Under the pieces are notes generated by a model, which made no database searches, had not been told where the DNA came from, and was given only the letters and a program-made list of their open reading frames with translations. The translations under genes and the position numbers were made by a program. This document shows, in pieces, positions 1 to 21,418 of a DNA stretch of 31,857 nt. This stretch comes from a virus. The stretch's first letter is position 1, and each line of letters begins with the position of its first letter. The stretch covers positions 1 to 31,857 of the IMG/VR virus record IMGVR_UViG_3300033064_000625, one strand, 5' to 3'.

Positions 1-608
1 GCCGAGTCCTCACTGAATACAATATTCAGATCGTGGGCCTCTTGCCGCATCGCATCTATAGCTTCAGAACCATCATCCAGCATTGGCAATAACTTTGTAC
101 CAGCATCGCCGAACAATTCAAAAGCCGCCGCCGTTTTTTCTGCCGGGTCTTTAATATCACCGATAGCCTTGGCTATTTCAAAGAATTTCTGCTCTTGTGG
201 TAAAGCCAAAAATTCCTCTATAGTAAATCCTAACGCCTCCAGCCGTTTAGTATATGAGTTATCAAGCCCTTGCCCAGCCATATCAGCCACACGTGATATG
301 CGGCGAATAGCTGCCTCCATATCTCCTAGACTGCTTCCCGATAATTCAGCCACATGCTTTAACTCACTGAGTGATTCAGTCGTAAAACCAGTGCGCTTGG
401 ACATCTTAGATATTGCATCGCCAGCTTTAGAGTACTTATTGGTCAAGGCAAGTAGCCCGCCGCCAATGGCCGTACTTATGCCTACCATAGCGAGTCCAGC
501 CTTCTTAAACTTGCCGGACATCTTATCGATGTTCTTGCCTATCTTGCCCAGCTTAGAACTGGCCTGGTCTTTAGCGCCTACGTGTACATCTATCTCAGCT
601 TTTGCCAT
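1..608 (-). CDS. Tape measure protein, N-terminal part (runs off left edge)
   Basis: The frame stays open from an ATG at 608 to the window edge, giving about 202 residues. The product begins MAKAEIDVHVGAKDQASSKL and continues with repeated Lys/Gly-rich amphipathic segments, a short hydrophobic stretch (AMVGISTAIGGGLLAL, about residues 42-57) and a segment with TGFTTESLSELKHVAELSG. These are typical of the N-terminal part of TP901/lambda-type tape measure proteins, which set tail length and help deliver DNA. The ATG shares one base with the stop of the chaperone gene (TAATG), so translation is probably coupled. Its position directly after the chaperone is the normal order in long-tailed phages. 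The rest of the gene lies outside the window, so total length is unknown. Confidence 0.88.
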   Translation of the reverse strand, partial: MAKAEIDVHVGAKDQASSKLGKIGKNIDKMSGKFKKAGLAMVGISTAIGGGLLALTNKYSKAGDAISKMSKRTGFTTESLSELKHVAELSGSSLGDMEAAIRRISRVADMAGQGLDNSYTKRLEALGFTIEEFLALPQEQKFFEIAKAIGDIKDPAEKTAAAFELFGDAGTKLLPMLDDGSEAIDAMRQEAHDLNIVFSEDS

Positions 609-1144
609 TACACCATCCTGGAAATAGCTACTACCACGCTTTCAAATACACCGCCCGTTAATAGCTTGCCGACATCGTTCTTGGTCAGGTTGGGATAAGT
701 CGGATTGAGCAGATAATATAACAGGCTCTTGAGAGTCTTTATCCGTACATTGGTCATTAGCTGCTCCCAGCCCTGATTGAATTCCTCCTCAAGCTGCTCC
801 ATGATATTGGCATCCAGCATGGCCAGGTGGTAACTGTTCCCGTCACCCAGCACTACCTCAAAAGGTTCCTTTGACTTACCCATTGCTACCTCCGTTCGTT
901 TTGGCATTTCGCCCACAAAGTCCTGGGCTTTATACGTGCGATTCTTACCGCTGGCAGTCATGGCCAATAGCTGGCCTATCCTGAATTCTATGCGGTACAG
1001 TTCCACGGCCCGCTGGTACTCGAAGTCAGCTACTAATTGTTTTAGCCGTCGAAACGATAGCAGCCCGATATACTCTAAAGACCAGCCAGTATGTCGGGCC
1101 ACCATAGCGGTCATTTCCTTAGTTCGCATTATGTGGTCGGCCAT
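608..1144 (-). CDS. Tail assembly chaperone, possibly two fused domains
   Basis: This is a 178-aa protein between the tail tube and tape measure genes, where tail assembly chaperones normally sit. Residues 1-86 include LSFRRLKQLVADFEYQR and a Lys/Arg-Tyr-x-x-x-Asp-Phe-x-Gly pattern, which resembles gpT-like chaperone tails. Residues 88-178 (MGKSKEPFEVVLGDG, then LEEEFNQGWEQL and RIKTLKSLLYYLL) resemble the gpG-like first chaperone. If correct, the domain order is reversed from the usual one. An internal ATG at 883 (Met88) has an excellent GGAGG five bases upstream and would give a separate 91-aa product. The first start is uncertain: ATG at 1144 overlaps the upstream gene by 16 nt, while ATG at 1129 forms a TAATG coupling. 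Family assignment is by pattern and position. Confidence 0.62.
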   Translation of the reverse strand: MADHIMRTKEMTAMVARHTGWSLEYIGLLSFRRLKQLVADFEYQRAVELYRIEFRIGQLLAMTASGKNRTYKAQDFVGEMPKRTEVAMGKSKEPFEVVLGDGNSYHLAMLDANIMEQLEEEFNQGWEQLMTNVRIKTLKSLLYYLLNPTYPNLTKNDVGKLLTGGVFESVVVAISRMV

Positions 1145-1947
1145 TCCAGTGCGTGTATGCCACGGAAGTCGTAGCTATACATCACAAGTCCATCGACGGT
1201 AACTGCTGGCCTCAGATTGGTAATGATAGCCGAGCCCCGCCATTGCTGCGTAGCCGTAGAGCTTTCCCTTAACTCCAGAGCCACTACGGTTCCGATAGCC
1301 AGGGGAGCGCCATCCTTGAAGCCGTCAAACGAGCCCGACCATTCCATCTGTGTGACGGTGAATACCTTGTCCTGACCGTCTGAATAGCTGGTACTGTCCT
1401 CCACATTGGCCGCTACGTCCAGGCTCCAGGCCCTGATACCAGCCACTTGTGCCGCAGCAACGATATGGTCTAGCCATAATGTAGCCGCTCCAGGGTCGTT
1501 TGCAAAGAGCTGAATAGCTATAGAGATTGGCAACGTGGAATTCGTAAATAGACCCGCTACTACAGGGCATTGGCAGAATTTCCAGACATTCGCCACCAGT
1601 ACGGGGAGGCTACATTGTACCTCTGGAGTGGCAGCCAAGGCATCGTTATCAATCAATATGCGGTAGTCGTCAGCCGTGTTGATATTAACGCTTGATTTTG
1701 CCCAGCAGAACAGTATCGTGTAAGCGGCCAAGGTTCCTAGAGCTATGACCTCAGACCCAAGTATATCCCCGTTGCCCAATCCAGCGGCTTGCACAAACTT
1801 AGCGGAAGCACTACCCACCTTATAGTCCAGTGTATCAGCCGTGGGGGTTACATCAGCGTCTGAAAACTCGTTCCAGATGTCCTCACAGTCCTCTACCACA
1901 AGACTGCCGACAAAGACGTTGCCGCCGTATCCTACTAATCTCGCCAT
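1129..1947 (-). CDS. Tail tube protein paralogue with a large inserted domain
   Basis: This 272-aa protein matches the next gene upstream (the 121-aa tail tube protein) at both ends. Both begin MARLxGYGG, and both share GIRAW, NVED, WSGSF, GFKDGAPLAIGT and VDGLVMYSYDFRG in the same order. The extra 151 residues lie at about 15-167. The insert has alternating hydrophobic strands, three cysteines (Cys113, Cys125, Cys127) and a pattern (VGSASAKFVQAAG, then CWAKSSV, then TLWLDHI) like carbohydrate-binding or LamG-type beta-sandwiches; this fold is inferred. The likely role is a minor or alternative tail tube subunit that displays a binding domain on the tail. A clear AGGAGGG precedes the ATG. Tail tube identity rests on position between terminator and chaperone. 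Confidence 0.7.
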   Translation of the reverse strand: MARLVGYGGNVFVGSLVVEDCEDIWNEFSDADVTPTADTLDYKVGSASAKFVQAAGLGNGDILGSEVIALGTLAAYTILFCWAKSSVNINTADDYRILIDNDALAATPEVQCSLPVLVANVWKFCQCPVVAGLFTNSTLPISIAIQLFANDPGAATLWLDHIVAAAQVAGIRAWSLDVAANVEDSTSYSDGQDKVFTVTQMEWSGSFDGFKDGAPLAIGTVVALELRESSTATQQWRGSAIITNLRPAVTVDGLVMYSYDFRGIHALEWPTT

Positions 1948-1956
1948 ATCGCCCTC

Positions 1957-2322
1957 CTATGCAGTCGCCACAGTCAACGCTCCCGTGCCACGGAAATCGT
2001 AACTGTACATTACGAGGCCGTCTACGGTACTCGATGGCCTGAAATTCGTTATGAATACATTGCCCGTATGCAATTGATTTGCCACAGCACTCTCAAGGAA
2101 TTGACCCGCCAGAACCGTTCCAATGGCCAGCGGTGCCCCGTCCTTAAAGCCCTCAAAGCTACCGCTCCATTCCCGTTGGGTAACGTCGAAGGTCTTATCC
2201 TGGCCAGTATCAAAGCCGCTGGAATCCTCCACGTTTGCCACGTAGTCTATATTCCAAGCTCGTATTCCCACGATAGCGCCAGGCATGAGTAATGACCCGC
2301 CATAACCAGCTAATCTCGCCAT
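1957..2322 (-). CDS. Major tail tube protein (short form)
   Basis: This 121-aa protein lies between the tail terminator and chaperone genes, the usual place for the major tail tube protein, whose hexamer rings stack along the tape measure to form the tail. It is beta-rich, with DKTFDVTQREWSGSFEGF and a C-terminal MYSYDFRGTGAL, and about 120 residues is at the small end for this class. It is colinear with the 272-aa paralogue downstream except for that protein's insertion. The ATG has AGGAGG nine bases upstream. The paralogue could have arisen from a tandem copy followed by domain capture, or this gene could be the version that lost the domain. Confidence 0.65.
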   Translation of the reverse strand: MARLAGYGGSLLMPGAIVGIRAWNIDYVANVEDSSGFDTGQDKTFDVTQREWSGSFEGFKDGAPLAIGTVLAGQFLESAVANQLHTGNVFITNFRPSSTVDGLVMYSYDFRGTGALTVATA

Positions 2323-2337
2323 GATAAGCCTCCTTTA

Positions 2338-2748
2338 TTAGCTCCAGACTTGTAATTCAAATTCTGTTGATAGATACATTGTGTTTCCCCAGGCTGTGCT
2401 CCCTGCTCCCGTATGACTGTCCAGCTTGGAAGCACTACATGAGCCGTCCAGCGTCCTATCCGCATCGAGGGCGGCGAAGATACTTTTCGCACCCGTATTG
2501 TCTATGTAATTCAGTAAGCGGTTGAAAGCCTCCGGGCTATCCTGTTTAGCCAGGCATAATATCAATCTGTACGTTTGGTCAAAGTCAGGGTCAAAGTCCG
2601 TAGCGAATTTACCAGCGCCCAGCATGATAATCACGCACGGCAATTCCAGGGTATCAGGTATCTCATTGGTAGCATATACCCGCAGACCCGTGGGGATGGC
2701 CGCCAGTATCGTGGTTTTAATGCCCGTGCCTATGGCTTCAACGCCCAT
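2338..2748 (-). CDS. Tail terminator-like protein
   Basis: A 136-aa protein with the gpU / minor tail protein pattern: an N-terminal helix (GTGIKTTILAAIP), then strands with PCVIIMLGAG, FDQTYRLILCLAK, a helix with AFNRLLNYID and a final strand ending FELQVW. Tail terminators cap the tail tube and join it to the head. Its start overlaps the stop of the HK97-gp10-like gene (TGATG), so the two are translationally coupled. Position between gp10-like and tail tube genes supports the call. Sequence similarity within this family is low, so the assignment rests on pattern plus gene order. Confidence 0.6.
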   Translation of the reverse strand: MGVEAIGTGIKTTILAAIPTGLRVYATNEIPDTLELPCVIIMLGAGKFATDFDPDFDQTYRLILCLAKQDSPEAFNRLLNYIDNTGAKSIFAALDADRTLDGSCSASKLDSHTGAGSTAWGNTMYLSTEFELQVWS

Positions 2749-3140
2749 CAGTCAAACCTCTTTTCAATCTCTACGTGTATGTCGTGCCCTTCCTTGTCCA
2801 TCCACTCCCGTAACAGTCCCAGTGCAAAACCAAACATACCCTGTCCCAGCCGCTTCGTTCCGCCCTCCATGTGTCTGGCTTCCATACGGGAGGTGCCCCA
2901 TTCTACGAAGGGGGCATACTGAACTTGAGTACCTACCCGGGCACTTGTGGCACCTATCTCTTGTGTTATGCTTGAGCGAAGTTCGCCAGTCTTCCATACC
3001 GTGGCTTTCTTGACCAGGCCCGCATACTTCAGGGCTATCTTCTTAATGCCACTAGCTACCGGCTTGCCTATAGTATCCTTGTCGGTCAGCTTCTTAGCCA
3101 GCTTATCAGCGCCTATGAGCTTGAAAGTTAGTCCTGTCAT
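2748..3140 (-). CDS. HK97 gp10-like head-tail joining / tail completion protein
   Basis: The 130-aa sequence has the hallmarks of the HK97-gp10 family: a Lys-rich N-terminal helix (DKLAKKLTDKD), a second helix (IKKIALKYAGLVKKAT), the segment TGELRSSI, then VGTQVQYAPFVEWGT, which matches the family's conserved Tyr-Ala-xx-Val-Glu-x-Gly-Thr motif. It ends with a Phe/Leu-rich helix. These proteins act at the head-tail interface or in early tail assembly. It overlaps the connector gene upstream by 4 nt and is coupled to the terminator gene downstream. Length is normal for the family. Confidence 0.85.
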   Translation of the reverse strand: MTGLTFKLIGADKLAKKLTDKDTIGKPVASGIKKIALKYAGLVKKATVWKTGELRSSITQEIGATSARVGTQVQYAPFVEWGTSRMEARHMEGGTKRLGQGMFGFALGLLREWMDKEGHDIHVEIEKRFD

Positions 3141-3958
3141 AGATACCTAAAATAGTCTTTGATTATTCCCTTCACATAGGGGTCTTCGTCCTTATAAGAT
3201 ACGACCAGGCCAGTGTCCGGACTGCCCACGACGTCCTGAAAAGCCGAGTCTTTCCGCTTCCATGCCCGCATAGCAATTACCAGTGTAGCTTCTCTGATAG
3301 GCTCCGGGACCATGTAAATGCTTATCGGGGTAGTCAGTATATGGGCCGCCGCTGTGGTACCATTCATGTGACGCTCTACGTTGCACGTAGTGGCATTGAT
3401 AATATCAAGGATATAGACTTGCTCATCCTCGATGCGTAACGTCATGCCAGCGCCCAGTGTGACCGTTGAGGTGACGGTTAGAACCAAGGCCACAGCCGTC
3501 AATGGATTGTCCTGCACTGTCTGACTTGAGGTGTAATATGGGGTAGCACTTTCACCGTCACCATATCCGTGGACTCCAGTCATTTCTATGCCCTGGCGCA
3601 CGCCTCTAGCGAAAGAGCCATAATCACCCTGGTTGCTTAATTCAATCCGTTCTTTCGGGTAACGATTAGCGGGATAAAGAACGTAGTCGGTAGCGGCCAT
3701 CGTAGCCTCATAGACACCATCGCCATCCTCGTCCAGTTTGAGGGTAGTAATACTCAGGAAATCGTCAATGAGTAGATTGCCATACTTGCCATCGTAATAC
3801 TTGGCACCCTCCCAGGCGTAGAACTTGCGATGCGTTCTTTTATCCATGTGGCGGCTCGCGCTCTCAAGTATCTGGCGAAACCGTCCCTGCTCCAAATTTT
3901 GCTCTATATGGGCATACTCCGGGCTTTTCAATTCAAGGACATTAGCGTAAGCGTTCAT
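3137..3958 (-). CDS. Head-tail connector (adaptor) protein
   Basis: A 273-aa protein located where gp6/gp15-type adaptors are found. The N-terminal half contains a helix with RQILESASRHMDKRTHRKFY and a segment LLIDDFLSITTLKLDEDGDG that matches the phage connector pattern (Asp-Asp-hydrophobic-Thr-hydrophobic), followed by TDYVLYPANRYPKERIEL. The C-terminal part ends in a helix with REATLVIAMRAWKRKDSAFQ, also typical. Residues of about 150-230 form a beta-rich insert (LTVTSTVTLGAGMTLRIEDE) that most small adaptors lack. The gene starts directly after the stop of the upstream gene (TAAATG). The adaptor ring would sit under the portal. Confidence 0.72.
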   Translation of the reverse strand: MNAYANVLELKSPEYAHIEQNLEQGRFRQILESASRHMDKRTHRKFYAWEGAKYYDGKYGNLLIDDFLSITTLKLDEDGDGVYEATMAATDYVLYPANRYPKERIELSNQGDYGSFARGVRQGIEMTGVHGYGDGESATPYYTSSQTVQDNPLTAVALVLTVTSTVTLGAGMTLRIEDEQVYILDIINATTCNVERHMNGTTAAAHILTTPISIYMVPEPIREATLVIAMRAWKRKDSAFQDVVGSPDTGLVVSYKDEDPYVKGIIKDYFRYL

Positions 3959-4243
3959 TTACGGCTCCAATACAAAGGTGTCTTTTTGCTTGGTAATTAT
4001 CGCCCCGTCTGTAGCTATGTAAAGCACGATGTACTCCCCCGCCACGACTGTCAGGGCCGAGGTATAATCATAATGGTCTAGGCCCACGCCGTCATTAGTC
4101 ATAGCTACAGCAGAAACCACTTCCACCCCATTAGGATTAGAGATAGTAATAGTTATGGAGGTGGCCGGGTCGACTAATGTACCAGCCGCATCCCTGATTT
4201 CTATTGAGCATCTAATTGTCTCACCAATTTCAAACAAGGCCAT
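3959..4243 (-). CDS. Small beta-sandwich virion protein
   Basis: This 94-aa protein consists of alternating hydrophobic strands (CSIEIRDAAGTLVDPATSI, then TITISNPNG, then GEYIVLYIATDG) that resemble a single Ig-like or baseplate BppU-N-like domain. Such domains decorate virions or join fibres to the particle. It is coupled to the 667-aa gene upstream through a TAATG overlap and directly abuts the connector gene downstream, so it is probably made with that protein. No catalytic residues are seen. Function is inferred only from fold-like pattern and location. Confidence 0.55.
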   Translation of the reverse strand: MALFEIGETIRCSIEIRDAAGTLVDPATSITITISNPNGVEVVSAVAMTNDGVGLDHYDYTSALTVVAGEYIVLYIATDGAIITKQKDTFVLEP

Positions 4244-6246
4244 TAACGCACCGCCATACTTGATTTTATAGTCAGGAGTGTGGATATACTACTCGTTATA
4301 ATTAACTCAGTGGCATTGGATTTTGTGAAGAATAATAGCTGTGTTAACTGTGACGCTACATTCAAAACCGTAGCCGTGAACTTGGTTATGTTCAGGACTG
4401 TAGCCAACTGCGAGGTAATGAACAGGATTGTTCCAGCCTTGATAGCAGCCAGAACTCCAGCCATGCCCACTGCACCACTTCCTACTGCAATCTTGATTGT
4501 CCTCCCTAGAGTGCCAGCCATACCCACGGCACCGCTACCCACGGCAAGTTTGAATACCTTAGCGACGACTCCAGCTATGCCCACGGCACCGGCACCGACG
4601 GCCAATCTAGTTAATCGAGCCAGGGTTCCCGCCATGCCCACAGCCCCAGCACCAATACCTATTCTCGTTAGCAGACCTAAAGCGCCAGCCATACCGACTG
4701 CGCCCGCACCTAAAGCTATTTTGATTAGTCTATTTAAGATACCAGCTATACCAACAACCCCGGCGCCTACGTCTATTCTAGTTAACAGAGCCAGCGCACC
4801 AGTCGGGGCTAGAGTACCCGCTCCAACAGCCATAGCGATAGCTCGTCCCAAAGCTCCAGCTAATCCTACCGCTCCACCACCCACAGCTAAGGAGAATTTA
4901 AACACGGTAGTCAGCACACCTGCCATAGTGACCGCCCCACCACCTACCGCTTGCACAAAGCCCTTTACTGCTCCCAGTACGCCGCCCATTGTAACAGCGC
5001 CCTCACCTACGTCAATAAAGGTATATAGACCAAGATTGCCCGCCATAGTGACAGCGCCACCACCTACCGCCTTGGCTGTAAACCCGCCGCCTGCTGTATA
5101 TTCGACATGAAGTTGAGGTGCTTCGGGGTTCGATAGATTGTGAGAATGGCCACCCCTAATAGCACTAGCACTACTACGATTGTCATGGTCTTCCCAGAAG
5201 ATAACTATGTCTTGGCCAGTTGCCCAACCACCTCTATCAACTATCTCTTGAATTACGGTCTTTATTTCAGGAGAAGTATATTCAACCCCATCAGTCCATG
5301 CGGCTATACCATCCCAAGCTATCTTAGCCGTAGTTCTAGCTCTCCCATTATAATTGGCATAAGTAGAAAAGGCCGCTGCATCGTCGGCATCTTCCCCTTG
5401 GATATAACTTTTTACAGTTGTCGATGATTTAGTTCCTGATGCTGTTATTATTAAAGAGGCAGTATCTATTGTTTCGGCTTGGGCTAAGGCCACAGTCTGA
5501 AAGCGTTGTCCTGTGCCGGAGTGAGTAAACCCCCAAACAGTTTTCTGGCCTACTGTATGAGAATTCCCATCTTGAAACGCCCAAGCAGCTCCAGGGTACG
5601 TCTTATATACCCAGCAATCATCTGCATTTGCGCCTACTTGCTCATCAACATCAACGTCAACGAACACTGGAAAGATTGCTGTCTGAAGCCATGAGTAAGG
5701 AGTGCGAATACTGATATATAGTTTATTCCCTCTCTTCTCAAGAGTAGCTATTGATTGACCCTTATTAAAGTCAACTGGCTCAGAGGGGACGGTGTAAGGT
5801 TCACCATCATCATCTAAAAATATCTCAGGTTCAGGAGAAACCATATCACCAGGATTACTACCCCAATACCTGAGAGGCATAAAACCCCAGAGAACTTCAC
5901 CATTCTTTCGGAACTCGATAATATTGAAGGTCTGAGTCTTGCTCTTTTTGTCCCAAAGCTCACCATCAACAAAGATGTCAAGGTCATTGGAGGGGTCAAA
6001 TATAAGGTTCAATCGTAGGACAGGATTGCCACCATCAATGATGTACTGCTGTGGTGTGGGCAGACTAGCCAGTGAATCTATCTCAAGTATCTTGGCTAAC
6101 CGAGTAGGCGTACACTTCCACTCAAAGTCAATGCATGTGCTATAGGCATCATCCCACCTGATAGTCCCTTGATGCGAAGGCATACCCACCCTTGGAAGCA
6201 GGTCAACTATGGGATTGGTAATTACGGGAGTGACATCTTGTGGCAT
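4243..6246 (-). CDS. Large virion/adhesin-like protein with two repeat arrays
   Basis: A 667-aa protein in three parts. Residues 1-385 are beta-rich and non-repetitive, and end with WEDHDNRSSA, then SNPEAPQLHVEYT, a pattern seen at the end of DNRLRE/disaggregatase-type beta-sandwich domains. Residues 393-605 hold eleven units of about 19 residues with consensus AVGAGAVGMAGxLxRLxKI. Residues 608-667 are six exact 10-residue units with consensus LxITxxxATx that run to the last residue. No signal peptide or catalytic motif is seen. The repeats suggest an elongated fibre or shaft, with the N-terminal part as attachment or binding domain. The ATG at 6246 has no good ribosome binding site. Function is not established. 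Confidence 0.6.
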   Translation of the reverse strand: MPQDVTPVITNPIVDLLPRVGMPSHQGTIRWDDAYSTCIDFEWKCTPTRLAKILEIDSLASLPTPQQYIIDGGNPVLRLNLIFDPSNDLDIFVDGELWDKKSKTQTFNIIEFRKNGEVLWGFMPLRYWGSNPGDMVSPEPEIFLDDDGEPYTVPSEPVDFNKGQSIATLEKRGNKLYISIRTPYSWLQTAIFPVFVDVDVDEQVGANADDCWVYKTYPGAAWAFQDGNSHTVGQKTVWGFTHSGTGQRFQTVALAQAETIDTASLIITASGTKSSTTVKSYIQGEDADDAAAFSTYANYNGRARTTAKIAWDGIAAWTDGVEYTSPEIKTVIQEIVDRGGWATGQDIVIFWEDHDNRSSASAIRGGHSHNLSNPEAPQLHVEYTAGGGFTAKAVGGGAVTMAGNLGLYTFIDVGEGAVTMGGVLGAVKGFVQAVGGGAVTMAGVLTTVFKFSLAVGGGAVGLAGALGRAIAMAVGAGTLAPTGALALLTRIDVGAGVVGIAGILNRLIKIALGAGAVGMAGALGLLTRIGIGAGAVGMAGTLARLTRLAVGAGAVGIAGVVAKVFKLAVGSGAVGMAGTLGRTIKIAVGSGAVGMAGVLAAIKAGTILFITSQLATVLNITKFTATVLNVASQLTQLLFFTKSNATELIITSSISTLLTIKSSMAVR
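4246..4425 (-). repeat. Six tandem 30-bp units encoding decapeptide repeats
   Basis: These encode residues 608-667 of the 667-aa protein. Units are LFITSQLATV, LNITKFTATV, LNVASQLTQL, LFFTKSNATE, LIITSSISTL and LTIKSSMAVR. The period is exactly 10 residues with no gaps, and the last unit ends at the stop codon. Position 1 is always Leu and position 4 is usually Thr. Period and composition fit a beta-solenoid or intertwined beta fibre tip, which is an inference. Confidence 0.8.
4432..5070 (-). repeat. Eleven tandem ~57-bp units encoding a Gly-rich 19-residue repeat
   Basis: These encode residues 393-605 of the 667-aa protein. Units start at residues 393, 412, 433, 454, 473, 492, 511, 530, 549, 568 and 587; most are 19 residues and two are 21. 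The core VGxGAVxMAGxL is nearly constant, while the second half of each unit varies and often ends Lys/Arg-Ile. The later units (530-605) are the most alike, which suggests recent expansion at that end. Confidence 0.85.
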
Positions 6247-8699: not shown

Positions 8700-9368
8700 T
8701 TAAGCCCCGTCAAATAGATAGCATTCTGAAGCGTATATAGCGTTTATCTGGTCTATGGTTAACTCATAGTTATAGAGAGTAGCCAAAGCCATTTCGATAT
8801 TACCAAAGCTCCCACCATTTACAGCACCAAATTGAAGGTCGGCTGTCGTAGTATCTGGCACGGTATAAACCGCATCTGTATTGGCCACGACTCCATTCTT
8901 GCAATGCTGCGCCAGGTTCCCAGCAGCATTAAGCGTAACGGCATAGTGAGCCCATGTGCCGACAGTATATGTAGCATTTATAAAGGCATGACTGACTCCA
9001 CCTTGCCTGATAAGCCAGATAAAGTTCCCCGTATCCATATAAACCGACATTCGATTATCGGCATGAATCCACTTGCCCCATATACGCCTGTACTGAGTGT
9101 AAGTAATTATCTTTACCCAGTACGTCATGGAGTAACCGTTACCGAATGCTATGGACGGGTCAGCAGTAATGGCTATCAAATCATTGGTACCGTCAAACTG
9201 TGGCACCCATAGGCCAGAGGATAGCTGCTGCCAGTCTGGTTGACCCGCTCCCAGGAATGCACCATCATTACCATACCGGCTCTGGTCAGGCCAGGCATCG
9301 GCTGGCTGTGCCGTACCGTATGGACTCCAAAAGCGGGGAGATTCAAATACAACGCCTCTAGTTATCAT
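8700..9368 (-). CDS. LamG-like (concanavalin A-type) surface protein, copy 4
   Basis: A 222-aa protein with the LamG jelly-roll pattern: DQSRYGNDGAFLGAG, then LSSGLWVPQFDGTNDLIAI, a central MTYWVKI strand, a WAHYAVTLNAAGN strand, and the terminal LYNYELTIDQINAIYASE. It is a paralogue of the three genes upstream. The fold binds glycans or proteins on cell surfaces. Its ATG overlaps the stop of copy 3 by 4 nt. There is no signal peptide, so it is expected to be assembled onto the virion in the cytoplasm. Confidence 0.72.
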   Translation of the reverse strand: MITRGVVFESPRFWSPYGTAQPADAWPDQSRYGNDGAFLGAGQPDWQQLSSGLWVPQFDGTNDLIAITADPSIAFGNGYSMTYWVKIITYTQYRRIWGKWIHADNRMSVYMDTGNFIWLIRQGGVSHAFINATYTVGTWAHYAVTLNAAGNLAQHCKNGVVANTDAVYTVPDTTTADLQFGAVNGGSFGNIEMALATLYNYELTIDQINAIYASECYLFDGA

Positions 9369-10063
9369 CGGGCAAAAAACCCCCGTTCGTTCTGGAACAT
9401 CCTGTAGATTTGCGCCTGGGTAAGCACGTAGTTATAAACACGAGGCGGTGAAACAAGCCCCTCGATATAATCAGCTATGCCCGTATTAAGAATAGCCCCC
9501 ACTGAGAGGTTATCTCGAATATCGAATATGGCGTCAAACCAGTTGCCCGTGTTCGCCCCAGAAGTAACCGTGAGCCCCTGCACTACCGCATCGACATAAA
9601 GTATCCAGGCTCCCGCTGTAGTATCTCCCATGACTGCGCACTGGTGCCATAGGCCGTCACCGCAGGCCACATCACCCGTGATCTGATTGAGAGCCCCGCC
9701 ATCCCTTTGCACTATCTCCAGAAAGCCAGTAGTCTGTACTAGCCGTAACTGTAGAAAGTTGGTATCTGTGCCCGTATCCGATGTGGCGAATATAGTCTGG
9801 TTGCCCGTCAGTATAGAGCTATTTATCCAACCGACAATAGTTCCCGCCCCGTCATAGTCACGCCAGCGTGCCTCATTCAAGGAAGCGTAGTCACTATTAC
9901 CATCGAGAGTTAAAACCCACAGGCCGGATACCAAGCGAGTCCAGGCAGCGGTAGCAGCGAAGGCCATATCAGTGCCAAACCTCGACATATCCTCCAATGT
10001 AGCAGGAGGAGGCGTTGCGCCTGTATACCGCCTGGGATTAAAGACGTTACTTGACACTCTCAT
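9365..10063 (-). CDS. LamG-like surface protein, copy 3
   Basis: A 232-aa LamG-like protein with DMSRFGTDMAF, then LVSGLWVLTLDGNSDYASL, a central TIVGWINSS strand, WHQCAVMGDTTAGAW, and the shared C-terminal signature RVYNYVLTQAQIYRMFQNER. The first and last signatures match the other three copies while the middle strands differ strongly, as expected for paralogues with diverged binding faces. The ribosome binding site is GGAG nine bases upstream of the ATG. Confidence 0.72.
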   Translation of the reverse strand: MRVSSNVFNPRRYTGATPPPATLEDMSRFGTDMAFAATAAWTRLVSGLWVLTLDGNSDYASLNEARWRDYDGAGTIVGWINSSILTGNQTIFATSDTGTDTNFLQLRLVQTTGFLEIVQRDGGALNQITGDVACGDGLWHQCAVMGDTTAGAWILYVDAVVQGLTVTSGANTGNWFDAIFDIRDNLSVGAILNTGIADYIEGLVSPPRVYNYVLTQAQIYRMFQNERGFFAR

Positions 10064-10066
10064 AGT

Positions 10067-10741
10067 TTAGACTCCAAGGAGATACCGCTCGGTTTCAAAT
10101 ATATTGCGGGCCTGTCCCGCTGATAACGGGTAATTATAGATTCTCGGTAATGACACACCACCTGATAAATCAGAGGCATTCAGATTGCTTACCCTAAGCC
10201 CACCAAAGCGCAGATAATCAGGGGAGGCTATATCACCAAACCATTCCCCGTTATTGGCTCCGGCAGCCACAGTCAGCGCCTCTAAAACGCCATCGACGTA
10301 AGCTACCCAGGTGGCACCATCTGTTGAGAGTACGATATGCTGCCAGGTATTTATTACTGGTGTGCCCCACGTAATAGTATCTCTGGCTCCAGCGCTCCAC
10401 GTGTCGAGCCTGTATTTATTGGTATTAAAGATTAAATATAGATATTCGTTGGCCGCCGCTCCCTGACTTTGAGATATGATAACCCCTTCGCCATCTATCG
10501 CCGCCCCTGGGTTAGCCCAGAGCGAGATAGCACCCCTCAAGTCGGTCAAGACATTAGTCAGGTCAGTGTAATCATCCGTACCATCGTATAATAGATACCA
10601 GAGGCCAGAAGGTAACTGTGTCCACGTCGCCCCGGTTATCGTGCCGTCATTACCATAGCGGGAGGTATCCAAAAGAGTAGCCGCACCAGGCTCCAGGTCT
10701 ATACTGCGTTCACCATCGAATACGTATCCGTTAACTATCAC
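10067..10741 (-). CDS. LamG-like surface protein, copy 2
   Basis: A 224-aa LamG-like protein with LDTSRYGNDGTITGATWTQL, then SGLWYLLYDGTDDYTDL, a central AISLWANPG strand, NTWQHIVLSTDGATW, then VAYVDGVLEAL and RIYNYPLSAGQARNIFETER. This copy is the closest to textbook LamG, with the Trp-x-His-hydrophobic strand and the Tyr-Val-Asp-Gly turn. Its start overlaps the stop of copy 1 (ATGA), so translation is coupled. Confidence 0.76.
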   Translation of the reverse strand: MIVNGYVFDGERSIDLEPGAATLLDTSRYGNDGTITGATWTQLPSGLWYLLYDGTDDYTDLTNVLTDLRGAISLWANPGAAIDGEGVIISQSQGAAANEYLYLIFNTNKYRLDTWSAGARDTITWGTPVINTWQHIVLSTDGATWVAYVDGVLEALTVAAGANNGEWFGDIASPDYLRFGGLRVSNLNASDLSGGVSLPRIYNYPLSAGQARNIFETERYLLGV

Positions 10742-11457
10742 GAGGCTACCCCCACTAGATATTTCTCAGCATGGTACCTGGCTCTGATTTGGGCAGGTGA
10801 CATTATGTAATTGAACATGCGAAGACCACCCATTTCGCTCTCATACCAGTTAGCATCAGTGGTAAACCGTGTGCCGATAACCAGGTCTTGAGTAGTAGAC
10901 TCGAAGTCACGTACATTACCAGTTGACGATGTAGTGGCCAAGACTACGCCGTTCCTATAATGCAAGCACTCCATGCCGTTGCCTTGGAACACCACGGTAA
11001 AGAAATAACTTGTTTCAGGTATCCAGCCCACAGAATTAGTGGCGGACCGTGGGTGCGTGTCGACAATAGTACCGGCATGATGATGCCGTTGGGTTAGGTA
11101 ATACACCCCTGCGTTTTCAGTGAGGTAAAGTTCCCAGCCACCAACATCAAGCTCATAGCGGGCTATTATAATTTCAGACTGTGAAGTATCAATCCACTGG
11201 CACCAGCCCATAATAGTATAGCCCTCGAGCAAACCGCCAGTGATGCCCATAGCTTCCGTGCTGGCGTGGGTAGCATCCATATAAGCAGACGTGCCATTAA
11301 AGAGGGGGATCCAGACACCCGTATGCCCCTGCGTCCACGTCACGTTATGCAAGGTCACGTCATGGTGCCAGCGGCTATGATCGTAAGAAGTCACTAGCCC
11401 TGGTGAAGCCCCGCCTTGCTGTCGGAATAAATCTAGTATACAGCCTGTAGTACGCAT
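10738..11457 (-). CDS. LamG-like surface protein, copy 1
   Basis: A 239-aa LamG-like protein, the first of four tandem copies. It shows YDHSRWHHDVTLHNVTWTQG, then VWIPLFNGTSAYM, a central YTIMGWCQWIDTSQ strand, YFFTVVFQGNGMECLHYRNG, and GLRMFNYIMSPAQIRARYHAEKY. It is the most diverged of the four, with several His in the middle. GGAGCGAAG precedes the ATG. A coiled-coil gene lies just upstream and could encode a partner or chaperone for assembly. Confidence 0.7.
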   Translation of the reverse strand: MRTTGCILDLFRQQGGASPGLVTSYDHSRWHHDVTLHNVTWTQGHTGVWIPLFNGTSAYMDATHASTEAMGITGGLLEGYTIMGWCQWIDTSQSEIIIARYELDVGGWELYLTENAGVYYLTQRHHHAGTIVDTHPRSATNSVGWIPETSYFFTVVFQGNGMECLHYRNGVVLATTSSTGNVRDFESTTQDLVIGTRFTTDANWYESEMGGLRMFNYIMSPAQIRARYHAEKYLVGVAS

Positions 11458-19790: not shown

Positions 19791-20232
19791 CTTGTCCTAT
19801 CTCGGCGGGGTCGCCGTGGCCGTTAGCAGGCGGCTTCATAACGGTTCCATCGGCCATGTGAAATATCAGAGCGGGTGGTGCGGGTGGTATTAACGGCTCA
19901 CCCTTATCTCCCGTAAACTCCTGGCGTTCGATATAGCCCCTGGCCTTGCCTTGAGTCTTGAGATAGAAGATAATGGCGGTCATATTGTTTTTAGAAATCT
20001 GAGCAAAGAGTTTCCCCTCTGCGAAGTCCAGCATCTCATCCTTAGCATCTACTACAGCCTGGGCAACAGAGGGATACTCCTCCACATAGCGGCAGACGGT
20101 ACGATAACCGATACCAGCATTCTTAGCCGCCAGCGTAAGTAGTCCGTGTGACTTGTGCAGAGATTCAATTATCTTCTGCGCTGTAAACTCTCGCTTTTTA
20201 GAGCCATTGCCATTTTTGCCGTTAGTTACCAT
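19759..20232 (-). CDS. Terminase small subunit
   Basis: A 157-aa protein with an N-terminal DNA-binding HTH of the small terminase type (FTAQKIIESLHKSHGLLTLA, then AAKNAGIGYRTVCRYVEEYP), a central helical region (LDFAEGKLFAQISKNNMTAI, then FYLKTQGKARGYIER) typical of this family, and a Pro/Gly-rich tail. It recognises packaging sites and loads the large subunit encoded next. The start overlaps the methyltransferase stop, with GAGGATAG as ribosome binding site. Confidence 0.88.
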   Translation of the reverse strand: MVTNGKNGNGSKKREFTAQKIIESLHKSHGLLTLAAKNAGIGYRTVCRYVEEYPSVAQAVVDAKDEMLDFAEGKLFAQISKNNMTAIIFYLKTQGKARGYIERQEFTGDKGEPLIPPAPPALIFHMADGTVMKPPANGHGDPAEIGQDGNGDKPSTA

Positions 20233-21418
20233 CTATCCTCACCGCCTCTTGCCCTGTAAAGTCCTGCCACCTCTTGATTATCACGTCACAATATGCCTCT
20301 GAAATCTCCATCATAAAGCACCTGCGGCCTAGCTTCTCACAGGCTATTAGAGTGGAGCCTGAGCCGCCGAAGAGGTCAAGGATGATATTGAAAGTATCTG
20401 CGGAATTATTTAATGCTCTGGTTATAAGTTCAACCGGCTTGGCTGCAAAGTGTTCTCTTTCGGCAACCTTAACAACATCAAAAGCCCAAACATTACTATC
20501 ATAAACGGTTCTTTGCTTTGATTTGTCTTTGTTAAACATCTCTTTCGCTTCTTTAACATTAGCTCCAAACATCATTAACTCGTGATGATTGAAATACATT
20601 GAACCGCTAAAATTACCGCCTTTTTTTGTCCAAACTATAAGATTCTTAATTGCCCCTGTAGCCTCACCAACAAGAGTGGGATACGAACGCCAATCACAGC
20701 ATACATAATAATGACCATTTAATTTCAATGTCTTTTGAATGGTTGAGAACACGATACGGAAAAATGGTTGTATCATTTTATCATCAGCTATATTTGGAGC
20801 TATCCCTGTTGAGCTACCATAAATAGCATAAGGCGGGTCAGTAAATACCATATCCGCCTTCTCACCACCCATCAGCCTCTCCACATCGGTTATAACAGTC
20901 GCATCCCCACAGAGTAGCCGATGATTCCCGAGACTCCATAAATCACCTCGCCTACAAATCGATTCTGTGGCCTCTGGTACGGCATCATCATCGGTAAGCC
21001 CTTCTTCAGGCACATGAAACTGTGTCATCAGGTCTTCAATCTCTTTCAGGTCGAAGCCTGTTATCTCCATATCGAACTCGCCGGTATCCAGTTCCTCCAG
21101 TAAGTCCTTGAGCATGGGCATATCCCACTCACCGCTAATCTTGTTAAGCGCCAGGTTGAGAGCCTTCTCCTTGACCTCCGAGAGGTCTACTACTGACACC
21201 TCGACATGCTCTATACCCAGTTCCTTCAAGACCTTTAAGCGCTGATGACCTCCCACCAGGTTGCCCGTTCTCTTATTCCAGACAAGGGGCTCCACCATAT
21301 CAAACTCAAGGATAGACTTCTTGAGCTTGTCATATTCAGCATCACCGGGCTTTAAGTCTTTACGTGGGTTATACCTGGCCGGGTTTATCCGCTCAAGTTC
21401 TACTGTCTGTATATCCAT
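20222..21418 (-). CDS. ParB-domain DNA methyltransferase (beta-type, N6/N4)
   Basis: A 398-aa fusion. Residues 1-130 are a ParB/sulfiredoxin-like domain with INPARYNPRK (11-20) and GGHQR (56-60). Residues 155-390 are an amino-methyltransferase with the catalytic DPPY at 194-197 placed before the SAM-binding DLFGGSGST at 348-356, the order of the beta group. It methylates adenine N6 or cytosine N4 and probably protects phage DNA from host restriction. Such fusions are common next to phage terminases. The start follows the 45-aa gene stop directly (TAGATG). Confidence 0.9.
   Translation of the reverse strand: MDIQTVELERINPARYNPRKDLKPGDAEYDKLKKSILEFDMVEPLVWNKRTGNLVGGHQRLKVLKELGIEHVEVSVVDLSEVKEKALNLALNKISGEWDMPMLKDLLEELDTGEFDMEITGFDLKEIEDLMTQFHVPEEGLTDDDAVPEATESICRRGDLWSLGNHRLLCGDATVITDVERLMGGEKADMVFTDPPYAIYGSSTGIAPNIADDKMIQPFFRIVFSTIQKTLKLNGHYYVCCDWRSYPTLVGEATGAIKNLIVWTKKGGNFSGSMYFNHHELMMFGANVKEAKEMFNKDKSKQRTVYDSNVWAFDVVKVAEREHFAAKPVELITRALNNSADTFNIILDLFGGSGSTLIACEKLGRRCFMMEISEAYCDVIIKRWQDFTGQEAVRIDGN

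Follow-up and report, generated by a model that had tools for sequence, protein, structure and literature searches.

A conserved gene pair for plain and decorated homologues of the siphovirus major tail tube protein

Why does a phage carry two tail tube genes side by side, one of which is longer by a single block? The locus lies in a 31,857-base linear viral contig (IMG/VR record IMGVR_UViG_3300033064_000625, positions 1 to 31,857), and this whole stretch is called the window below. The gene order on the minus strand is portal, capsid, LamG and beta-helix proteins, connector, tail terminator, short tube, long tube, chaperone, and tape measure. Thus, the tube gene pair sits between the terminator and the chaperone/tape measure genes, as is the case for siphovirus major tail genes. 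The features of the locus are as follows.

2338..2748, minus strand: tail terminator protein gene (neighbour); phrog_17840 tail terminator, E = 3.8e-14
2329..2335, minus strand: Shine-Dalgarno sequence AAGGAGG of the short gene, read from the sequence; hybridisation energy -12.0 kcal/mol
1957..2322, minus strand: predicted short (plain) major tail tube protein, 121 aa; phrog_1407 major tail protein, E = 7.5e-8; profile of its relatives against R4C 8gtb, E = 6.9e-11
2170..2241, minus strand: predicted beta2-beta3 (inter-ring) loop, short protein residues 28-51, from the R4C alignment and PMC10276861; matched to its partner within phages
1953..1958, minus strand: Shine-Dalgarno sequence AGGAGG of the long gene, read from the sequence; -10.7 kcal/mol
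1129..1947, minus strand: predicted long (decorated) major tail tube protein, 272 aa, tube domain plus a 151-aa insert; phrog_1407, E = 6.7e-7 (residues 167-271); AF2 mean pLDDT 82.6; Foldseek matches to R4C/monocin/GTA tubes and to CBMs
1453..1899, minus strand: predicted CBM-like jelly-roll insert, long protein residues 17-165 or so, beta1-beta2 loop; AF2 pLDDT 97.8 (71-row alignment); Foldseek CBM16/30/4, E = 3e-5 to 1e-4
1342..1413, minus strand: predicted beta2-beta3 (inter-ring) loop, long protein residues 179-202, from the R4C alignment and PMC10276861; matched to its partner within phages
608..1144, minus strand: tail assembly chaperone-type gene (neighbour); phrog_2115 tail protein, E = 4.5e-4; Pfam Phage_tail_T below cut-off
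1..608, minus strand: start of the probable tape measure gene, which runs out of the window; from position and sequence character

The two ORFs, of 121 and 272 aa, were found exactly where a sequence-only reading had placed them, on the minus strand and each with an ATG start. Nine bases separate the short gene from the long one; the stop codon of the short gene falls within the long gene's Shine-Dalgarno sequence (TAGGAGG), and the last 16 bases of the long gene overlap the chaperone gene. The proteins are colinear and share both ends, as had been claimed: residues 1-9 are identical at 8/9 positions (MARLxGYGG), residues 17-116 of the tube domain (100 aa) show 66% identity, and the length excess of the long protein is exactly 151 residues in a single block. 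The alignment of the two paralogues (E = 6e-44) and the recurrence of the pair in 56 other non-identical records exclude chance. The insert had been placed after residue 14. It does precede the shared GIRAW, but the exact residue cannot be fixed, since MAFFT opens the gap after residue 10 and positions from about 10 to 17 are all equivalent. A frameshift origin of the pair was rejected, because there are two complete genes, each with its own ATG and Shine-Dalgarno sequence. The tape measure extends past the window and is 458 aa long in a near-identical contig (L004:6667-8043). The chaperone-type ORF (608-1144, minus strand) is a single gene of 178 aa in the window; relatives such as L013, L107, and L114 have instead two separate genes (about 100-116 aa each) and, ahead of them, a third gene of about 103 aa which is absent from the window. 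Elsewhere on the minus strand of the window, a 667-aa protein without a family match (4243-6246) has C-terminal G/A-rich repeats of about 24 residues (GAGAVGMAGALGLLTRI), and an N6/N4 DNA methylase is fused to a ParB-like domain (20222-21418).

Are these really tail tube proteins? A profile built from the window protein together with 25 plain relatives matched the R4C major tail protein (8gtb) over the full length with an E-value of 6.9e-11, followed by monocin (2e-5) and, weakly, the GTA tube protein. In direct searches against known phages, the short protein found only Rhodobacter phages and DSL-LC06, and the long protein found no matches. The AF2 model of the long protein (11 alignment rows) has a mean pLDDT of 82.6, lower in the tube part (about 65-84). 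A tube beta-sandwich with a long beta2-beta3 loop is present in this model, which was made for the long protein only, and Foldseek linked the tube part to the R4C, monocin, and GTA tube proteins. Thus, the tube identity read from the sequence was borne out by phrog_1407, by the 8gtb profile match and, for the long protein alone, by the structure prediction that had been proposed as a check. It is confirmed at the level of sequence and model that both genes encode homologues of siphovirus major tail (tube) proteins.

What is the insert? Modelled alone by AF2 with a 71-row alignment, it reached a pLDDT of 97.8. The best Foldseek matches were CBM16 and CBM30 at an E-value of 3e-5, and CBM4, CBM11, and CBM22 were also found (3e-5 to 1e-3); the TM values of about 0.5 mean a common fold, not close kinship. 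The full-length model of the long protein gave the same families for the insert (CBM30, 16, 4, 22, and 11). The insert as modelled is a CBM16/30/4/11/22-type (galactose-binding-like) jelly roll. The sequence-only reading had suggested a carbohydrate-binding or LamG-type beta-sandwich; the CBM-type fold held, whereas a LamG/ConA-like identity was rejected, since there is no Laminin_G_3 match and hhalign gave a probability of 0.3% against a LamG protein of the window. The insert of the window matched no Pfam or NCBIfam family and so belongs to no curated CBM family, and no match to it came from the sequences of the PDB; CBM_6 and Mann_GBD_bact profiles matched single distant members of the insert family only. 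Seven residues (Cys21, Trp25, Gly45, Trp82, Pro115, Trp122, and Asp160) are conserved in at least 94% of 47 inserts. Sugar binding is suggested by the modelled fold, although a CBM fold does not prove ligand binding. As a separate observation, four neighbouring genes of the window (8700-11457, minus strand) encode proteins of 222-239 aa, three of which match Laminin_G_3; the virion may carry several further lectin-like proteins.

The domain is not confined to this tube family. It occurs in L052, a tube protein of PF18906, a family unrelated to the window tube proteins; there it occupies residues 25-169, and the PF18906 match resumes at profile position 21 after the domain. From the sequence, this N-terminal site looks equivalent to the beta1-beta2 loop. 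Another PF18906 tube protein, L077, has the domain at a second site (residues 99-243). Non-tube virion proteins with the domain are a gp80-like fibre (L061), a beta-helix protein (L063), and phrog_3287 head proteins (L072 and L079). The tree of inserts requires several exchanges between tube and non-tube proteins. A single origin of the insert was not supported, since the inserts of L068 and L031 group with non-tube proteins, that of L068 with the non-tube protein L093. The L068 gene (L068:1548-2588) encodes a decorated tube protein of 346 aa with an extra segment between the CBM-like and tube domains.

Might the domain be a structural part? Many CBM-like folds bind no sugar. The tube ring of YSD1 is stabilised by domain2, a beta-sandwich set within its major tail protein (PMC8718954), and the insert might likewise brace its neighbours in a mixed tube and bind no host glycan. 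This proposal rivals the adhesin reading developed below on function only and overlaps with it on assembly. It is possible but doubtful, since plain-only relatives form tubes without the insert, and a domain whose relatives are found at differing sites of fibre-like, beta-helix, head, and unrelated tube proteins looks more like a portable surface module than a specific brace.

Is the pair common? I scanned with the short and long alignments and analysed all ORFs of the fetched loci with profiles. The pair is present in 57 non-identical records (the window and 56 others), always in the order short then long and never reversed. The gap is usually 8-33 bases. L042 has an intact pair with a 690-base gap, and L125 has an endonuclease-like ORF (L125:3061-3501; LAYVAGLVDGEGNIG) between the two tube genes of an intact pair. 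Six records have two plain tube copies, while seven (L101, L103, L104, L109, L121, L122, and L128) have one plain tube gene with the chaperone gene immediately after it. A prophage on a 1,521,287-base contig holds one of the pairs, and the genome of this contig falls in the class of a Dehalococcoidia MAG; downstream are RidA-, RecN-, and ABC-transporter-like host genes, named from their sequences by eye. The window phage may have a Dehalococcoidia-type host, judging by kinship to the prophage pair. To my knowledge, Dehalococcoidia phages are almost unstudied. The 57 natural pairs can be set against relatives with one or two plain genes, a comparative data set in which tube sharing by two subunits, side-on adhesion to glycans by tails, and what binds Dehalococcoidia are testable.

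Could the pair be a recent, dispensable duplication with a neutral insert? The seven single-gene relatives indicate that the plain protein alone can serve. However, 57 non-identical pairs exist, the long proteins diverge to 35-40% identity with frames intact in the complete copies, and the seven insert residues have been kept, which together make such an origin extremely improbable. On the other hand, one ancient duplication with clean clades of short (S) and long (L) proteins was not recovered. The 109-column tree mixes S and L, and the two proteins of the same phage sometimes pair (L012, L039, L048, L049, and L117). In L036, the short (2872-3255) and long (3267-4088) genes share an identical run of 51 nucleotides, which is a sign of probable recent gene conversion in that phage.

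On which side of the tube would the insert lie? The beta1-beta2 loop contacts the external Ig domain in lambda and the sheath in the T6SS tube (PMC8718954). Since this loop faces outside in these solved tubes, the insert would, by analogy, point outward. Moreover, a lumen that holds the tape measure and lets DNA pass would scarcely have room for six additional domains, each of about 150 residues, in every ring. The beta1-beta2 loop may be a site where tail tubes naturally accept domains for display on the outside.

How much of the long protein is made? The mean predicted anti-Shine-Dalgarno energies are -12.1 kcal/mol for the short gene, -11.7 for the long gene, -7.5 for the upstream gene in the terminator position, and -4.0 for the next gene. 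As expression proxies only, these energies differ between the long and terminator genes (p = 6e-5) and not between the long and short genes (p = 0.27). The terminator is a one-ring protein. A six-copy protein would be expected to resemble the terminator, and the long gene is far stronger; therefore, by this proxy, an abundant long protein is favoured. Alternatively, the long protein may form one or a few specialised rings, for example beside the tip or the terminator, as a local CBM-like collar on an otherwise undecorated tube. Specialised rings with a tube fold are known (Dit), but Dit-type genes come after the tape measure gene, while the long gene adjoins the plain tube gene ahead of the chaperone and tape measure genes. 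A collar of this kind seems unlikely, since the predicted ribosome site of the long gene equals that of the short gene in strength and greatly exceeds that of the terminator gene.

Do the two proteins meet in the same tube? Taken over 47 complete pairs, the two proteins of one phage show 62% identity in the tube domain, compared with 49% across phages, and 10,000 shuffles of partners gave at most 52.5%. The excess is concentrated in residues 28-51, the beta2-beta3 loop (68% within a phage and 40% across phages), and in residues 93-107 (64% and 44%), as opposed to residues 65-92 (45% and 42%). Among orthologues, the loop is the divergent part (S-S identity of 43% in the loop and 55% outside), whereas it is the conserved part only for co-resident paralogues (68% and 61%). 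S-S and L-L pairs chosen to have the same identity outside the loop served as a control: in the loop, co-resident pairs reached 0.68 and the controls 0.44 (sd 0.024; maximum 0.52 in 5000 draws). Codon agreement at identical loop residues is 0.38 within a phage and 0.36 across phages. Recent gene conversion was ruled out as the cause of the matching at residues 28-51 by this codon comparison and the divergence-matched controls, while raised codon identity at residues 93-121 shows that some gene conversion is visible there. The phages compared are not independent data points, and after thinning to nine divergent lineages, loop matching was seen in eight of the nine.

In R4C, the beta2-beta3 loop touches three subunits of the next disc via V33, W36, M38, F46, and T48; W36 is held by V49 and K107, and K107 packs on W36 of the next disc (PMC10276861). 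These contact residues (V33, W36, M38, F46, T48, V49, and K107) align with short-protein positions 32, 35, 37, 45, 48, 49, and 100, respectively. Positions 45, 49, and 100, the last of which aligns with K107, are among those with the strongest partner matching (excess 0.41-0.46). The simplest reading of the loop matching is that both proteins would dock in the same sites. This pattern would fit a mixed tube and a single special ring alike, since matching is also expected if a long ring stacks on short rings. Could each tail instead be all plain or all decorated, giving two virion types? The two ribosome sites are equal, the data do not directly separate mixing within tubes from mixing between tubes, and a common terminator and tip could account for part of the matching. 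However, proteins that never meet need no inter-ring compatibility, and yet the inter-ring loop is the part best matched within a phage, which makes alternative tubes very improbable.

In summary, plain and decorated subunits probably co-polymerise into a mixed tail tube of a siphovirus-type tail, with outward CBM-like modules serving as glycan adhesins. Such a mixed tail had been raised in the sequence-only reading; the inter-ring loop matching and the equal predicted strength of the ribosome sites, both sequence-based, speak for it. The short protein would be the plain tube subunit, and the long protein its paralogue with a CBM-like jelly roll in the beta1-beta2 loop, outside the tube. The strong ribosome site of each gene would supply both proteins in large and similar amounts without frameshifting. 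If the same beta2-beta3 loop and docking surface are used for stacking, both proteins would join the same tube. As a rule of thumb, a 458-aa tape measure would give about 17 rings or 100 subunits, and the tail could display tens of modules. Before the tail tip makes contact, these modules might adhere to glycans of the host surface, each with low affinity but together with high avidity. A stricter form of the idea is an obligate two-component tube, with defined alternating plain and decorated positions (hetero-hexamers or alternating rings), co-evolving inter-ring loops that keep the register, and neither protein able to build the natural tail alone. I know of no obligate two-component tail tube, and I consider this form quite unlikely.

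Decorated tail tubes are known mainly as single proteins or frameshift products with C-terminal domains. Unlike these, the conserved gene pair described here separates a plain from a decorated subunit. That the decoration is N-proximal and comes from a second gene, in contrast to lambda and SPP1, was upheld by the position of the insert before GIRAW and by the two full genes. A literature search that covered few subscription papers revealed no paper on such an arrangement. Each element is known by itself. In the literature searched, no description turned up of all of them together: a paralogous gene dedicated to the decorated subunit, a CBM-like module inside the beta1-beta2 loop, and a pair that has long been conserved with its loops matched.

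SPP1 gp17.1/gp17.1* resembles the pair in having a plain and a decorated subunit, known in SPP1 to share one tube with an auxiliary decoration (PMC8718954) and proposed to do so here. It differs in using one gene with a frameshift, a C-terminal FN3 domain, and a 3:1 ratio (PMC8718954). Here, each of two genes has a strong start of its own, and the CBM-like domain is internal; the window pair has no frameshift, an N-proximal decoration, and colinear C-termini. The lactococcal 936 MTP-TpeX also has a CBM-type module on part of the tube subunits, and the isolated extension of TpeX binds host cells (PMC6669499). However, that module is C-terminal, frameshift-encoded, and BppA-like, following an Ig-like domain (PMC6669499), whereas the module here belongs to another CBM type and sits inside a paralogue. 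Lambda gpV and T5 pb6 share a beta-sandwich decoration, theirs on the tube exterior, but carry it as a C-terminal Ig fold on every subunit (PMC8718954). Domain2 of the YSD1 major tail protein is, like the insert of the long protein, a beta-sandwich inside the tube domain, but it lies between alpha1 and beta4 on every subunit and acts as a brace (PMC8718954). Evolved Dit proteins have, like the long protein, an internal CBM in a tail protein of related fold, but form one or two rings at the tip, not a tube (PMC6669499). The R4C major tail protein (PDB 8gtb), the closest solved homologue of the tube domain, is by contrast a single undecorated tube protein (PMC10276861).
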